Shown: positions 2,140 through 36,554 of the stretch, piece after piece
Layout of the letters: every line of letters begins with the position of its first letter
Position numbering within the stretch: position 1 is the stretch's first letter
From: Streptomyces sp. V4I2
Lineage (GTDB): Bacteria > Actinomycetota > Actinomycetes > Streptomycetales > Streptomycetaceae
Assembly: GCF_030817655.1 (NCBI RefSeq)
Contig: NZ_JAUSZM010000003.1
Location: 7,130,001 to 7,194,000, forward strand
Direction: 5' to 3'
Length of the DNA: 64,000 nucleotides
Position numbers and translations under genes: made by a program
The notes under the pieces: model-generated
The model's database searches: none
What the model saw: only the letters and a program-made list of their open reading frames with translations
Told to the model about the DNA's origin: nothing

Positions 2140-2537
2140 CCGGTTTGGCGAGGCGGGGCAACCTCGGGGGAGCGGCCGCAGGGGCGCGGCCTCGGAGGGA
2201 GTGGCCGCCGGGGCAGTGGCCGCTCAGTGGCCGCTGGCGGTACCTTGCGCCCGCCCGGCACGACGGCTCCTGCGGGCCTGGCGTGCAGGCTTCCGTTTGG
2301 GGGAGGCGGCAGGCGCCCTGTACGGGGGGCCTGCATCCCGCCCGGAGGGCAGGGTCCTGAGCGGGACGGGGCCCCAACTCCGCCGGGCGGGCGGGCTCCC
2401 GCGCAGGCCGGTGTTTGCATCCTGCTCGGCGGTCAGTCTCGCCGTGCGTGCGGGGCCCCAACTCCGCCAGGCGGGCAGGCTCCCGAGCGGGCCGGGCCCC
2501 ACCCCACCCGGCGGGCTCCCGCACGGGCAGGACGTCA
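2140..2537. repeat. Gene-free GC-rich stretch with degenerate tandem repeats
   Basis: No credible gene. The stretch is a mosaic of imperfect repeats rich in GGCGGGC and GGCTCCCG. The clearest pair, beginning GGGGCCCCAACTCCGCC, is at 2368-2401 and 2452-2485 (period 84 bp), with further half-units on both sides. Open frames on both strands have low-complexity Pro/Arg/Gly composition and no start signals. It directly abuts copy 1 of the 365-bp element. Confidence 0.6.
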
Positions 2538-2903
2538 ACCGTTCCTGTGGACTGAGCAGGAGTGAGTCCGCTCAGCCGCACGCCCCGAACGGTCTTGGGC
2601 GCACTGGTCCCCGGCGTACTCGACCCCGGGGCAGCGACACGGATCCTGTCCGTGGTCCGATCCCGGGAGGCCGGTTCCCTGCGTGACCTGGCCAGATGGG
2701 TACAGCCAGAGGCGACGGGGAGGCCCCGAACCATCACTCCGGTGGAGCGGGGGCCCCGCACGCTGGCGCCGTACCCGGCGTCCCAGATCACACGATCACC
2801 GTAGCCCGAACGGACCAGGACGCCGCAAGCCCGGAAGTCGACCATCACACGATCGAGTTAAACCGTCCTCGTCCACAGTCCCCGGCCAACAGCTGGCAAC
2901 CCC
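2538..2903. repeat. Three-copy 365-bp structured element, copy 1
   Basis: First of three dispersed copies (others at 19068-19430 and 36190-36554), bounded by ACCGTTCCT and GGCAACCCC. It holds hairpins CTGAGC/GCTCAG (2552-2557 with 2570-2575), CACGGA/TCCGTG (2638-2643 with 2649-2654), CTGGC/GCCAG (2688-2692 with 2705-2709) and CGGCGTCC/GGACGCCG (2776-2783 with 2818-2825). Near the right end is CACACGATCGAG. Strand is undetermined. It lies between the converging dasD and nagB genes. Function unknown. Confidence 0.8.
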
Positions 2904-5590: not shown

Positions 5591-5973
5591 ACCCACACGG
5601 GTTAGGCTGCGTGGTGGATGCCAGGGCGTCCAACTACCGGGGACACCGCAGTGACGCCCGCAGGAAAGTCCCAACAACAAACAGGCTTCAACGCATGGAC
5701 ACACGAAGTGGTCTAGTCCACAATGCGTAGGGACAAGTAAAAACCAGCATGCTTCCGCCTTCCCCGCACAGGAAGGCGGACCGAGGAACCGGAGCTCTCT
5801 GCCCTGACTGCCCCGGGTCCTCATCCTTCGGCCGACTGGGACCGCACACCCCACGGTCGATGTTGCTCCGGGCTGCGGTGCCGGGAGGGTTGAGGGTCCC
5901 TCTCAGGCGCCGCGGCCCGCGGGTGTTTTCGGGCCCGCCCATATGCCCGGGTACGCTCGCACACGTGCCCTCC
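5591..5973. promoter_or_regulatory. Gap upstream of the sensor-kinase gene, holding a dre-like site
   Basis: No gene is supported in these 383 bp. The only clear signal is the dre-like site at 5707-5722, itself flanked by the inverted pair ACGCAT (5691) and ATGCGT (5723). The remainder is GC-rich promoter-type DNA of the kinase gene. Confidence 0.5.
5707..5722 (+). promoter_or_regulatory. DasR-type operator (dre-like) upstream of the histidine kinase
   Basis: AGTGGTCTAGTCCACA matches AGTGGTCTAGACCACT at 14 of 16 positions. It lies about 250 bp upstream of the kinase start and 117 bp past the TetR stop. Distance makes direct control of the kinase uncertain. Confidence 0.6.
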
Positions 5974-15172: not shown

Positions 15173-15485
15173 GGCCGCCTCCTTCACACTGCACGCCGAC
15201 CGCCGTGCGCGGCCGCCTCGTACCGCTTGCTTGTACCGGAAGCGGAGGATCCGGACTACTCGTTCGCGCGGCGTGCGAGCCGATCCGGACAACCTCTGTC
15301 CGCTCCCCGGACTGTGGAAGCGGAAGGCGGTGTTGGACGGGATCCCCCTATGTGCCCAGTCGGACAATGATCCATTCCCGCTCGTTCGTGTAATAGCACC
15401 GGAACGGTCCGTGATGGAAGGCTTGTGCACGGAGATCGACGCGTGGCGCAGATCAGCGCCGGGCAAACCGGGAGGGCAATTCCTT
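15173..15485. promoter_or_regulatory. Divergent promoter region of the amidase and eshB genes
   Basis: 313 bp without a supported gene. It carries the amidase ribosome site (15179-15183), the eshB ribosome site GGAGGG near 15470, and AT-enriched DNA at 15355-15400 where the eshB promoter most likely lies. GTGTAATAGCAC (15388-15399) is a short palindrome of unknown meaning; its spacing does not fit CRP. Confidence 0.45.
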
Positions 15486-16892
15486 ATGTCGGTAGGCGAA
15501 GAGGTCCGCACCGAGCAGGACAAGCCGCAGCAGAGCCTCGGCACGGCGGCCGCGCGGAACCTGGCCACCACCACCAAGTCCGTACCGCAGATGCAGGAGA
15601 TCAGCTCCCGCTGGCTGCTGCGCACGCTGCCCTGGGTGAATGTGCAGGGCGGCACGTACCGGGTGAACCGGCGACTCACCTATGCCGTGGGGGACGGCCG
15701 GGTGACGTTCGTGAAGACCGGTGACCGCGTCGAGGTGATCCCCGCCGAGTTGCGCGAGCTTCCCGCACTGCGGTCCTACGAAGACGAGGAGGTGCTCACC
15801 GAGCTCGCCCGGCGCTGCGAGCAACGGGAGTTCGACGCGGGGGCCGTGATCGCGGAGTTCGGCAGCCAGACCGACGAGATCTTCCTGCTGGCGCACGGCA
15901 GGGTGGAGAAGGTCGGCACCGGCCCGTACGGCGACGACGCGGTCCTCGGAGTCCTCGCCGACGGGGCGTACTTCGGCGACCAGGGGCTCCTCGACCCGGA
16001 CACCATCTGGGAGTACACGGCCCGCGCCGTCACCGCCTGCACGGTGCTCGTCCTGCCTCGCACGCATGTCGAGCAGGTCGCGGAGCGCTCGGAGTCCCTG
16101 GGCGGGCACCTCCAGGAGCAGCGCGCGATCCCCTCGCAGCGCACCAACAAGTTCGGCGAGAAGGAGATCGACCTCGCGGCCGGCCATGACGGCGAGCCGG
16201 ACATCCCGCACACCTTCGTGGACTACGAGGCCAGGCCCCGCGAGTACGAACTGAGCATCGCCCAGACGGTACTGCGCATCCACTCCCGCGTGGCCGACCT
16301 CTACAACCAGCCGATGAACCAGACCGAGCAGCAGATCCGGCTGACGGTCGAGGCGTTGAAGGAACGCCAGGAGCACGAGCTCGTCAACAACCGCGAGTTC
16401 GGGCTGCTGCACAACTGCGAGTACGACCAGCGGCTCCAGCCGCACGACGGCGTGCCCAGCCCCGACGACCTGGACGAGCTGCTCAGCAGGCGGCGCGGCA
16501 CCAAGCTGCTGCTCGCCCACCCGCGCGCGATCTCCGCCATCGGGCGTGAGCTCAACAAGCGCGGCCTCGTCCCGGAGACCATCGAGGTGGCCGGCAACCG
16601 GATTCCCACCTGGCGCGGCGTGCCGATCTACCCGTGCAACAAGATCCCGGTCACCGAGGCCCGTACGACCTCGATCATCGCCATGCGTACCGGCGAGGCC
16701 GAGCAGGGCGTCATCGGTCTTCAGCAGGCCGGCATCCCGGACGAGATCGAGCCGAGCCTGTCGGTGCGCTTCATGGGGATCAATGAGCAGGCGATCATCA
16801 AGTACCTGGTGACGGCCTACTACTCGGCCGCGGTCCTCGTGCCGGACGCGCTCGGCGTCCTGGAGAACGTCGAGATCGGCCGCTGGAGGTGA
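15486..16892 (+). CDS. eshB: Family 2B encapsulin shell protein with cyclic-nucleotide-binding domain (EshB)
   Basis: 468-aa protein of the EshA/EshB family, now classed as family 2B encapsulins: HK97-type shell proteins carrying a cyclic-nucleotide-binding domain. Residues 1-90 form the N-terminal arm and start of the shell domain ([20 protein letters not shown]). About 90-205 is the cNMP-like domain, with [17 protein letters not shown] and the cassette AYFGDQGLL, where the usual Glu is Asp. From about 220 to 468 the HK97-type region resumes ([65 protein letters not shown]). ATG at 15486 has GGAGGG 9 bp upstream. Next is a polyprenyl diphosphate synthase, the known partner type for this shell family. 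Ligand binding cannot be judged from sequence. Confidence 0.92.
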
Positions 16893-16917
16893 CGTTCGCG
16901 CACTCGAAAGCCGTGCC

Positions 16918-16935
16918 CCCGCCCTGCGGGGCGGG
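16918..16935 (+). other. Hairpin between eshB and the polyprenyl synthase gene
   Basis: CCCGCCC / GGGCGGG stem with the 4-base loop TGCG, 26 bp past the eshB stop. It could terminate most transcripts or protect the shell mRNA 3' end, giving more shell than cargo. No U tract. Confidence 0.45.
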
Positions 16936-17007
16936 TACACCCCGGTCGTACGCGCCCAGCCACAGCGCAGGCGCGCCACGGTCCGCGGACTCTCCGAGGG
17001 GGACCCC

Positions 17008-18132
17008 ATGGCCGAGTTCATGACGGAGACGAAGCAGGGCGTCGGTGCACAGCCCACCGGACAGTGCGCAGGACACCCCAGCGGGCACTCCGCGGGCGCG
17101 CATCCGCTCGACGGGTACGAGGCGGGGGTGATCCTGGAGCGGGCCCGGACCTCGGTCGACCCCGAGCTGCGTTCCGCCCTCGAGTCGCTGCCCGGCTCCA
17201 TGCGCCGTATCGCGCTCTACCACTTCGGCTGGGAGCACGCGGACGGCAGCCCGGCGGCAGGCAACGCGGGAAAGGCCATACGCCCCGCGCTCGTTCTCAC
17301 CGCGGCCGCGGCACTGGGCGGACCGCGGGCGCGGACGGCGGCCGTACGGGCGGCCGCGGCGGTGGAACTGATCCACAACTTCACGCTGCTGCACGACGAC
17401 GTGATGGACCGGGACACCACCCGGCGGCACCGGGCCACCGCGTGGACCGTGTTCGGTGACACCGACGCGATCCTCGCCGGGGACGCGCTCCAGGCGCTCG
17501 CCCTGCGGCTGCTCGCCGAGGATCCCCATCCGGCTTCCGCGCGGGCCGCCGCCCGGCTCGCGGACTGTGTCGTCGAGCTGTGCGCCGGCCAGCACGCGGA
17601 CACCGCCCTGGAGCTGTGCCGCCCGGGCGATGTGACGCTCGACGAGGCGCTCGCCATGGCCGAGGCCAAGACGGGAGCGCTGCTCGGATGCGCCTGCGCG
17701 CTGGGCGCCCTGTACGCGGGGGCACCGGAGGAGGACGTCGAGGCGCTGGACGCGTTCGGCCGTGAGGCCGGGCTCGCCTTCCAGCTCATCGACGACGTGA
17801 TCGGCATATGGGGCGATCCTGGCAGCACCGGCAAGCCGGTCGGTGCGGACCTCGTCGCCCGCAAGAAGTCGCTGCCGGTCGTCGCCGCGCTCACCTCCGG
17901 CACGCCGGCGGCCGGAGAACTGGCCGAGTTGTACGGCGTTCCGTACGAGGAGGGGGACCTGGAGCGGACGGTTCTCGCCGTGGAGCGGGCGGGCGGTCGC
18001 GACTGGGCGCAGGTCCAGGCCGCCGACCGCATGGCCCGCGCCATGCAGGAGTTGGCCCGCGCGGTGTCCGACCCGGAGGCGGCGGGCGGGTTGCTGGCGC
18101 TGGCGGAGTTCGTGACGCGGCGCAGCAGCTGA
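17008..18132 (+). CDS. Polyprenyl diphosphate synthase, probable encapsulin cargo
   Basis: 374-aa trans-isoprenyl diphosphate synthase that condenses isopentenyl diphosphate with an allylic diphosphate. The first Asp-rich motif is LLHDDVMD near residue 130, with basic residues RRHRATAW after it. The second is LIDDVIG near 260, DDxxG rather than the usual DDxxD. The GKAIRPALVL motif is near 87. The first 35-40 residues are Gly/Gln/His-rich, low in predicted structure and not part of the catalytic fold. In family 2B systems such disordered N-termini direct cargo into the shell. ATG at 17008 follows GAGGGGG. It lies 115 bp after eshB on the same strand. Product chain length is unknown. Confidence 0.9.
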   Translation: MAEFMTETKQGVGAQPTGQCAGHPSGHSAGAHPLDGYEAGVILERARTSVDPELRSALESLPGSMRRIALYHFGWEHADGSPAAGNAGKAIRPALVLTAAAALGGPRARTAAVRAAAAVELIHNFTLLHDDVMDRDTTRRHRATAWTVFGDTDAILAGDALQALALRLLAEDPHPASARAAARLADCVVELCAGQHADTALELCRPGDVTLDEALAMAEAKTGALLGCACALGALYAGAPEEDVEALDAFGREAGLAFQLIDDVIGIWGDPGSTGKPVGADLVARKKSLPVVAALTSGTPAAGELAELYGVPYEEGDLERTVLAVERAGGRDWAQVQAADRMARAMQELARAVSDPEAAGGLLALAEFVTRRSS

Positions 18133-18920: not shown

Positions 18921-19067
18921 AGGTCCTCCGGTGTGCCGGCATCAGGTAGTTGAGCCGCGCTTCCGGTGTGCCGGCGCCCGGCCCTGGGCCCCGCTTTCGG
19001 TGTGCCTGCACCCGGCAGCTGGGCCCGGCCTCCCGTATGCCGCCCCCGCAGCCCCACCCTTCCCGCT
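18921..19067. repeat. Tandem repeats of about 35 bp before element copy 2
   Basis: Four degenerate units share TTCCGGTGTGCCGGC followed by CCCGGCAGCTGGGCCC (around 18927, 18958, 18992 and 19030). They stop where the 365-bp element begins. No gene is supported. Confidence 0.65.
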
Positions 19068-19430
19068 ACCGTTCCTGGGCAGTGGGCGGGAGTGAGTCCG
19101 CGCACTGGCACGCCCCGAACGGTCTTGGGCGCACTGGTCGTCCGCTTTCGCAACCGGGTGGCGACACGGATCCTGTCCGTGGTCCGGTCCCGGAAGGGCG
19201 GAGTCCCTCACGACCTGGCCGTATGAATGCGGCCAGAGGCGACGGGGAGGCCCTGAACCATCTCGCCGGTGGAGCAGGGGCCCCGCATGGCGGCACCGCG
19301 CTCGGCGTCCCAGATCGCGTCGCTCACGTTACTCCGGCCTGCACTGGACACCGCAAGCCTAAAAGCCGACGATCACACGATCGAGCTAAATCACCCTCAC
19401 GCACGCTTCCCGGCGAGCAGTTGCCTACCC
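19068..19430. repeat. Three-copy 365-bp structured element, copy 2
   Basis: Most diverged copy. Equivalent hairpins: GTGGGC/GCGCAC (19082-19087 with 19100-19105), CACGGA/TCCGTG (19165-19170 with 19176-19181) and CTGGCCG/CGGCCAG (19215-19221 with 19230-19236). It has a net change of length relative to copies 1 and 3 that breaks any shared reading frame. The right edge overlaps the last codons and stop of the TetR gene at 19425. Confidence 0.8.
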
Positions 19431-20015
19431 CTCCGGCACCACCGTCGCCACGATCCGCTCCACCAGCCCTTCCGGCACGCTCACCCCGGGCAGTACGCCG
19501 TCCAGGACGCCCGGCAGGGTCAGGTGTTCCAGGATCAGCCCGAGCATCGCGAGGTAGAGCACGGTGACGGTCTCGTCGCCGCCGGGCAGGCCGGCGTTCC
19601 GGTGGAACTCCATGCCGTACTCCAGGTCCCCGCGCACCGACTTGGTGTAGGAGGCGAGCAGTCCGGGGCGGCGGGTGGCTTCCAGGCGCATCTCCAGGAG
19701 GGCGAGATAGCCGGTGCGGTCGCGGGTCGCGCGGGTCATGAGGTCGTGCATGAAGGCGGTCACCAGTGAACGGTCCCTCGGTCCCTTCAGCAGGTCGGCC
19801 ATCACCTCGGGGTCGGGTGCGAGCCGCACGTGTACCCGGGCGTCGATCTGCCGCAGCAGGTCGTCGCGGTCGGTGAAGTAGTTCGAGGCCGTCCCCACCG
19901 GCACCCCCGCCTCGGTGTCCACCGCGCGGAACGTCAGCCCGCGCGCCCCCTCGCGCGCGAGCACCTCGACCCCGGCGTCCACGAGCACGGCCCGGCGCTC
20001 CGGATTGCTGGCCAT
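19425..20015 (-). CDS. TetR-family regulator beside the DHFR-like gene
   Basis: 196-aa repressor with an N-terminal TetR helix-turn-helix (VEVLAREGARGLTFRAVD, then VPVGTASNYFTDRDDLLRQ, residues about 12-55) and a helical ligand domain. ATG at 20015 begins the conserved MASNPERRAVL; the gene could extend in frame to 20063 but a purine-rich site (AGAGGGG) sits just before 20015. Its 3' end runs into repeat copy 2. It is divergent from the DHFR-like gene, with 14-bp direct repeats in the gap that are its probable operators. Confidence 0.9.
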   Translation of the reverse strand: MASNPERRAVLVDAGVEVLAREGARGLTFRAVDTEAGVPVGTASNYFTDRDDLLRQIDARVHVRLAPDPEVMADLLKGPRDRSLVTAFMHDLMTRATRDRTGYLALLEMRLEATRRPGLLASYTKSVRGDLEYGMEFHRNAGLPGGDETVTVLYLAMLGLILEHLTLPGVLDGVLPGVSVPEGLVERIVATVVPEG

Positions 20016-20065
20016 GCGGAATCCCCTCTGCCACTTGATTCCGTGCCCGGAATCCACTTGCAACC

Positions 20066-35801: not shown

Positions 35802-36189
35802 ACCTGCGGGACCGGCTGTTCGGGTGGGTTGAGTGGGTTCGGGGGTGGGGCGGGTGATGCCTGCGGCGGCCTGTGCCGGGTGGGTGGGGGCGGGCGTAGC
35901 GCCTTGCGTTGGGTGGTGGGTCGGGGCCGCGCCGGGGGGTGTCCGTCCTCGGAACGGCGCGGAATCGGTCGGCCAGGGAGGTACCGGCGTGGACGCGCCA
36001 ACCGCTGCGGGCGGACACCCCCCGACACGTCCCCTTCCCGCCGTACGCGACTGCGGGAGCGTCCACCTTCCGACCTTCCGACCGACCACCTCTCGGCGCA
36101 TCGAGCCACCCGCCTGGGGCAGTCCAGTCCCCAGGCCGAAGCTCACCTCTCGGCTGACCAAGTCGGGTGGTGGGTGGAGGCCGTCCCGG
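35802..36189. other. Gene-free GC-rich stretch before element copy 3
   Basis: 388 bp, no supported gene. A perfect 13-bp inverted repeat, CGGGGGGTGTCCG (35933-35945) with its complement at 36012-36024, encloses 66 bp. The rest is Gly/Pro-codon-like low-complexity DNA similar to that beside copy 1. Confidence 0.5.
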
Positions 36190-36554
36190 ACCGTTCCTCT
36201 GGACTGAGCAGGAGTGAGTCCGCTCAGCAGCACGCCCCGAACGGTCTTGGGCGCACTGGCCCCCGGCGTACTCAACCCCGGGGCAGCGACACGCATCTTG
36301 TGCGTGGTCCGATCCCGGGAGGCCAGCTCCCTGCGCGATCTGGCCGGATGGGCACGGCCAGAGGCGACGGGGAGGCCCTGAACCATCACTCCGGTGGAGC
36401 AGGGGCCCCGCACGCTGGCACCGCACCCGGCGTCCCAGATCGCAGGATCACCGTAGCCCGAACGGCCCAGGGCGCCGCAAGCCAGGGCGCCGATCATCAC
36501 ACGATCGAGCTAACTCGACCTCGTGCACGCTTCGCGGCGAACAGTTGGAACCCC
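36190..36554. repeat. Three-copy 365-bp structured element, copy 3
   Basis: Collinear with copy 1. Hairpins: CTGAGC/GCTCAG (36204-36209 with 36222-36227), CACGCA/TGCGTG (36290-36295 with 36301-36306) and CTGGCC/GGCCAG (36340-36345 with 36356-36361). The second differs from copy 1 at both paired positions (G-C to C-G), keeping the stem. It ends with GAACAGTTGGAACCCC. Confidence 0.82.

Follow-up and report, generated by a model that had tools for sequence, protein, structure and literature searches.

Three copies of a 365-bp repeat, with unrelated flanks, lie within the window, the 64-kb stretch of Streptomyces DNA analyzed here. An earlier note on this DNA described a dispersed repeat in three copies, and nucleotide comparison bears this out:

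2538..2903, minus strand: copy 1, the mini-element, with a GGGG left end at 2900-2903 and a right end (...GGAACGGT) that stops at 2538
19068..19431, minus strand: copy 2, with the reRNA core at 19068-19193, a predicted guide at 19048-19067 and a GGGG left end at 19428-19431
36190..36554, minus strand: copy 3, with the reRNA core at 36190-36318, a predicted guide at 36170-36189 and a GGGG left end at 36551-36554

In a nucleotide search, copy 2 displays 78% identity to copy 1 (E 1.6e-77) and copy 3 displays 89% (E 6.5e-136). The boundaries of copy 1 were set by comparison with full elements and with the empty sites of two other copies. The repeats had been placed in gaps after dasD, a GNAT gene and the malic enzyme gene. 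Pfam agrees with such neighbours, identifying a glycosyl hydrolase family 3 gene, GNAT and TetR genes, and malic enzyme and zinc dehydrogenase genes, but copy 2 is no clean gap insertion, since its left end provides the stop codon of a TetR-type ORF (19425-20063, minus strand). Two other RNA matches are present in the window. Rfam recognizes scr5239, a known Streptomyces sRNA, at 5752-5910 on the plus strand (169 bits), and the antisense sRNA family Sernc350 at 15520-16024 on the minus strand (143 bits); the latter falls where a long ORF runs on the same strand (15453-17201), and coding conservation may drive the match.

The repeat is not confined to the window. A nucleotide search of the 11.1-Mb genome to which the window belongs returned 19 matches; 11 of them are long and share 74-89% identity with copy 1. 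Nucleotide matches are found in 9 of 41 genomes, all within one of six genera. Further copies and an Infernal covariance-model search had both been suggested as checks, and relatives were found: at E 0.01 or better the model of the RNA described below has 28 reRNA matches in the window's genome. Of 199 Streptomyces genomes, 68 contain matches, and so do 40 of 147 genomes from the order, every one of these 40 belonging to that same genus. Thirteen of the 28 reRNAs in the window's genome have a tnpB gene within 1.5 kb and 15 do not, the latter including truncated and weak ones. Genomes were termed short-type by a model match length of 126-130 nt; there are 23 of these, and in the 21 whose loci were inspected no tnpB lies within 1.5 kb. 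The element measures 351-362 bp in 17 copies, with 3-bp and 1-bp gaps, while L011 and L012 are truncated copies. A plasmid search gave 9 records, none covering 80% of the query; the 790-kb plasmid record NZ_CP109170.1 (Streptomyces sp. NBC_01724) has 12 places resembling the element.

The hairpins that the earlier note had read on the plus strand are real, but the structured RNA is predicted to lie on the minus strand. In copy 1 its parts are:

2538..2666, minus strand: reRNA scaffold core (covariance model R1, 143.5 bits, copy 1 being among the 26 training sequences of R1)
2518..2537, minus strand: predicted 20-nt guide, in the flank outside the repeat
2538..2544, minus strand: 3' arm of a predicted pseudoknot, GAACGGT, pairing with the loop at 2587-2593
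2552..2575, minus strand: 3' hairpin CTGAGC/GCTCAG (2552-2557 with 2570-2575)
2578..2604, minus strand: middle hairpin GTGCGCCC/GGGGCGTGC, whose loop contains the 5' pseudoknot arm
2638..2654, minus strand: 5' hairpin CACGGA/TCCGTG

A pattern search requiring an ACGGT end gave 28 copies. Of these, 26, with and without tnpB, served for the pairing test and for building the covariance model, and L010 and L021, both with a palindromic insert, were excluded. The double change of CACGGA/TCCGTG to CACGCA/TGCGTG and the variation of CTGAGC/GCTCAG, first noticed in the three window copies, both prove real and recur widely among the 26 copies, the latter as a change to CAGTG/CACTG-type stems. Both-sided change affects 5 of 7 pairs of the 3' hairpin, 4 of 8 of the middle hairpin and 3 of 6 of the 5' hairpin. 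In the whole fold 96.1% of cells pair and 13 of 30 pairs are altered on both sides, whereas shuffling gives 6.1±1.3 and none of 500 shuffles reaches 13, a control inflated by the relatedness of the copies; register-slid controls, which retain that relatedness, give 3 to 6 pairs with paired changes while pairing drops to 25-46%. The covariation on which the earlier proposal hung is strong. The predicted pseudoknot is paired in 95.1% of cells across the 26 copies, with four of its seven pairs invariant and none showing paired changes. A long-range CGGCGTCC/GGACGCCG helix, also proposed before, was set aside: a rough test gave it no support, averaging 5.3 of 8 positions paired in 29 of 34 copies, with five copies unparsable and several mis-parsed.

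Rfam 15 gives no match at the copies (for copy 1, up to E 5), nor in four full loci up to E 1, RAGATH-18 included, and a known Rfam RNA was rejected on this account. A consensus scan between the left end and the reRNA found no promoter. Bases past the right end are unconserved among copies, and by analogy with TnpB biology the 20-nt flank of copy 1 is predicted to act as a guide; within the 64-kb window, the opening 12 nt of each of the three guides have no match apart from the guide itself. Two of the copies, L010 and L021, from two genomes, carry a palindromic repeat of ~30 bp (TGGGGGTACCTCCCACGCCC...GGGGGAGC type) at one reRNA loop position, and a similar palindromic sequence lies near the reRNA at L042 in another genome.

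Partial-length matches of the repeat led to larger elements of ~1.84 kb, where an ORF on the antisense strand extends as far as the repeat and encodes a protein of ~550 aa. Its affinities are with TnpB, the ancestor of CRISPR-Cas12. The protein matches NCBIfam guided_TnpB at E ~1e-12 (48 bits against a cut-off of 100), surpasses the TIGR01766 cut-off narrowly in one of three proteins tested, and has a weak match to a Cas12f1-like TNB domain, most TnpB family scores being under their cut-offs. Sequence matches to solved structures are likewise weak (best E 0.011). An AlphaFold model, itself weak (pLDDT 63.8, pTM 0.49), retrieves AsCas12f/Cas12f as top Foldseek hits (E 2e-10, global TM 0.25-0.31), other Cas12 proteins, and, with a low global TM-score, the IS607 TnpB structure 8iaz (ISFba1 TnpB). 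We aligned 35 TnpB proteins drawn from the 45 loci, of the best 80 of 410, whose frames were checked. The RuvC residues are D in 35/35, E in 35/35 and D in 31/35, and the C-terminal CxxC zinc finger is absent from all 35, its place being taken by a cysteine-free DPAYTSxWGAQHWQKPL-type stretch. These residues and the weak model identify the partner protein as a predicted TnpB with the RuvC D-E-D and a Cas12/TnpB fold.

The minus-strand repeat corresponds to the RNA region that overlaps and follows the 3' end of tnpB. The covariance model matches this end in 80 of 80 related tnpB loci (E 1.2e-22 to 3.5e-9), which are the best 80 of 410 relatives of one protein, with Nonomuraea and Micromonospora among them; three of the 80 (L194, L196, L206) appear to be in the training set of the model. 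The scaffold lies there beside the flank, and mini-elements hold the same RNA with no tnpB within 1.5 kb. This shared position points to the minus-strand RNA being the putative reRNA/omegaRNA scaffold of a zinc-finger-less actinobacterial TnpB. The tnpB frame stays open to within ~40 nt of the reRNA end or beyond it in 43 of the 45 loci checked (best 80 of 410). The open frames noted earlier as collinear in copies 1 and 3, whose interruption in copy 2 had been weighed against a protein, fit relics of this 3' coding extension overlapping the reRNA. Open tnpB frames (L132-L211) often end in a QQDSLPLSL-like sequence, a long overlap of coding sequence and guide RNA.

A TnpB match at E 1e-20 or better is present in 21 of 23 genomes, all chosen for holding short-type reRNAs; G113 and G120 have none, and in G211 the match is a fragment of ~100 residues only. 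The window's genome has seven near-full-length TnpB frames without a stop. An IS110-family element (PF01548, PF02371) of ~1.33 kb, near-identical between copies, sits in 8 of the 13 tnpB copies of this genome (L071-L078), always at one point of the reRNA 3' hairpin (for example, L040:829-2194). Because eight of thirteen copies are split at the same reRNA point, IS110 seems to target the TnpB guide scaffold. The insert is absent from 117 other loci (80 named tnpB and 37 of short or tnpB type), in a search that found its positive control. With these eight tnpB-linked reRNAs split and several mini-element scaffolds intact, the guide supply in the window's genome may have shifted to the mini-elements.

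The origin of the element can be read from its relatives and its ends. Of the 80 related loci (the best 80 of 410), 19 have an IS607-type serine recombinase gene immediately in front of tnpB, and four have too little upstream sequence to judge. The PF00239 resolvase domain is found in three TnpA proteins tested; the two of them that lie beside these tnpB genes are 199 aa long and score above the NCBIfam IS607 cut-off. The mini-element itself has no serine recombinase TnpA, which makes it a derivative of IS607 and no autonomous member of the family. A TnpA of the matching clade is also missing from the window's genome, the single IS607 TnpA over the cut-off being 54% identical, so mobility there may be past. 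Left ends of the form GGGGT...CTG are common to tnpA-tnpB elements, tnpB-only elements and mini-elements where readable, and diverge past ~20 bp; counted by eye, a readable GGGGT left end occurs in 17 of 32 short copies scanned, the others being truncated or altered. The right end is GGT in 114 of 115 copies, a count taken from model matches and free of the ACGGT-pattern bias, and the unconserved bases that follow make a sharp boundary. The right-flanking nucleotide is T in 34 of 35 short copies and 80 of 80 tnpB copies (best 80 of 410). As multi-copy internal-deletion derivatives that share both ends with autonomous relatives, the mini-elements conform to the PATE or MITE pattern.

Two insertion sites were reconstructed. 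The site of the L007/L054 copy is empty in G009, G107 and G120, where an uninterrupted gene aligns at 87-88% identity; the flanking GGGGT joins the right flank without target duplication, although all three relatives have CGGGT in place of GGGGT. A coenzyme A transferase gene (PF01144, E 4e-25) is interrupted by the L003/L053 copy; four ways of joining its halves were tried, and a single one, with GGGGGT remaining in the flank, restores the reading frame. In these two copies insertion is at GG without target duplication, as is characteristic of IS607. As the portions of PMC10711439 covered describe it, the TnpA of IS607 is a serine recombinase that works on double-stranded DNA and crosses over at GG dinucleotides, and the nucleotide flanking the right end is fixed and counts as scaffold; the ends and empty sites observed here fit that account. 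An IS200/IS605 (Y1) origin was considered for the sharp right end and dropped once tnpA-tnpB elements with a serine recombinase turned up; of 12 genomes searched for Y1 transposases, 10 have them, and two, G145 and G120, gave no match. The earlier choice between a structured RNA and a hairpin-based mobile element thus resolves into both at once, but the single-strand transposase recognizing hairpins that it implied gives way to the double-strand IS607 serine recombinase.

Mini-elements form a group of their own. In a tree of 73 reRNA regions, including 36 of the 80 tnpB loci (best 80 of 410), all 37 mini-element rows fall on one side of a branch with support of 100/100. Support is 100/99 in a tree of 68 rows to which divergent tnpB copies from the window's genome were added (21 of the same 80 tnpB loci, best 80 of 410, and 13 own-genome copies). 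Short-type rows are the best-scoring loci returned by searches; both trees omit L068 (truncated), L069 (a tnpB-type remnant) and L103 (which ends in GGC), and the smaller also omits L066, L082 and L086. The trees thus portray the mini-elements as a probable single lineage, apart from the sampled tnpB-bearing copies, and the 100/100 branch argues that they are not repeated fresh deletions of those copies. Among 30 mini-element copies alone, again taken from the best-scoring search matches, 98.0% of cells are paired and 7 of 30 pairs show paired changes, as against 1.9±0.9 when shuffled. Pairing kept within copies that have no tnpB suggests that the RNA fold was selected after tnpB loss, or in an unsampled source lineage.

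We are highly confident that the 365-bp copies are IS607/TnpB-derived elements with an reRNA. The explanation we favour, with a probability of roughly 0.7, is that of a non-autonomous IS607-type mini-element that has lost tnpA and tnpB, kept its reRNA and works in trans. Such an element retains its left end (GGGGT...) together with a right end that holds the complete reRNA scaffold. The TnpA of an autonomous relative, a serine recombinase, would recombine the ends at GG dinucleotides and insert the element at GGGG|T; shared ends and empty sites are what suggest this trans-mobilization. A minus-strand transcript would run past the right end, so that the neighbouring ~20 nt become the guide, and a TnpB encoded elsewhere in the genome would bind the scaffold RNA in trans. 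Guided by it, TnpB would cut the empty insertion site on the sister copy, consisting of a G-rich motif followed by the guide sequence, and repair from the filled copy would restore the element. Expression of the RNA, its binding by TnpB and the guided cleavage that retains the element are thus presumed steps, and a working guide function in trans, judged from the sequences, has somewhat better than even odds. The preference for an RNA or mobile element over a protein holds for the element itself, yet a protein partner, TnpB, is presumably involved in trans. We regard as evenly balanced the further proposition that the mini-elements are an old, independently evolving, protein-free lineage of guide-RNA transposons that would parasitize IS607 twice, borrowing a recombinase to move and TnpB to persist.

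The most serious competitor, which we nevertheless consider unlikely, holds that the copies are decaying deletion derivatives moved by TnpA in trans, with an idle RNA whose fold was inherited and maintained only in tnpB-bearing ancestors. Truncated copies, the 74-89% identity of long copies to copy 1 and the 3 of 23 genomes without a substantial TnpB match all speak for decay, but the paired changes arise within the tnpB-less lineage itself, and full branch support (100/100) sets this lineage apart from the tnpB copies sampled. It is improbable that the element is a plain MITE whose hairpins are DNA structures or TnpA binding sites for recombination instead of RNA: hairpins at the right end and the sharp boundary there would suit it, but the IS607 TnpA described above acts on double-stranded DNA at GG dinucleotides, the paired-change signal reaches ~120 nt inward, and the layout is that of a TnpB guide scaffold, with a loop that can pair with the 3' end beside the guide. 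A domesticated host RNA, either a regulatory guide with an inactive TnpB or a small RNA, would account for a stand-alone scaffold with varied guides and for the 4 of 35 aligned TnpB proteins without the third RuvC aspartate; dispersed copies with varied flanks, and a site empty in three relatives, make it very improbable. A short protein gene or protein relic behind the conservation, for which the overlap of the reRNA with the open tnpB extension might be cited, can be virtually dismissed, as copies vary in length and display paired base changes rather than codon-wise conservation.

If guide scaffolds do persist as a mobile lineage of their own within the non-autonomous IS607 mini-elements proposed here, one TnpB could serve many dispersed guides, the intermediate stage leading from self-guided transposons to CRISPR-like systems with several guides. 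With this family, the action of TnpB in trans could be tested clearly in Streptomyces; it also provides an RNA family without an Rfam 15 match and a set of zinc-finger-less TnpB proteins of ~550 aa with a predicted G-rich target motif.

Guide RNAs apart from their nuclease gene have a parallel in the stand-alone omegaRNAs of IscB, encoded away from the nuclease, that Altae-Tran reportedly described in 2021; the nuclease and the RNA of that system are different ones. In PMC11061315, to the extent of the text available, 64% (10,258 of 16,029) of RAGATH-18 RNAs adjoin an IS607 tnpB and about 36% do not. These orphans resemble our mini-elements as guide scaffolds without an adjacent nuclease gene, but that text does not present them as a mobile family, and contig ends may explain some of them. 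Non-autonomous forms have been discussed for tnpB-only elements, which the portions of PMC3627910 covered treat as possible non-autonomous derivatives; in the corresponding portions of PMC9956272 and PMC11870625 nothing was found on such forms, and the open-licence PMC literature on non-autonomous TnpB elements, as far as it was covered, yielded no IS607 mini-element family with an reRNA.

Two known systems come closest. IS607 elements with TnpB and reRNA, as excerpts of PMC10711439 (ISXfa1) and PMC11061315 (ISFba1/RAGATH-18) describe them, share the GG crossover, the fixed flanking nucleotide in the scaffold, a G-rich TAM (GGG in ISXfa1; AGGAG and GAGGG for IS607 TnpB proteins in PMC11061315) and a pseudoknotted reRNA at the tnpB 3' end. 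The mini-element differs in having neither tnpA nor tnpB and no RAGATH-18 or other Rfam match, and its partner TnpB differs in its ~550 aa and missing usual zinc finger, compared with an average of 390 aa in the sources as covered. The closest known kind is that of PATE-like deletion derivatives. The palindrome-associated transposable element of Halanaerobium, in the part of PMC7290912 covered, joins 28 nt of the left end, the final 58 nt of tnpB and a complete 160-nt right end into ~271 nt, and like our element it is reduced to its ends, without a transposase. That PATE belongs to IS605 and occurs as one copy in one genome, whereas the Streptomyces mini-elements are IS607 kin that form one lineage in many genomes, with a fold kept by paired changes. 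PATE-like remnants and IS607 TnpB elements are thus both known; given the lack of an Rfam match and of such an IS607 family in the literature covered, a mini-element family of IS607 carrying its own reRNA is apparently new.
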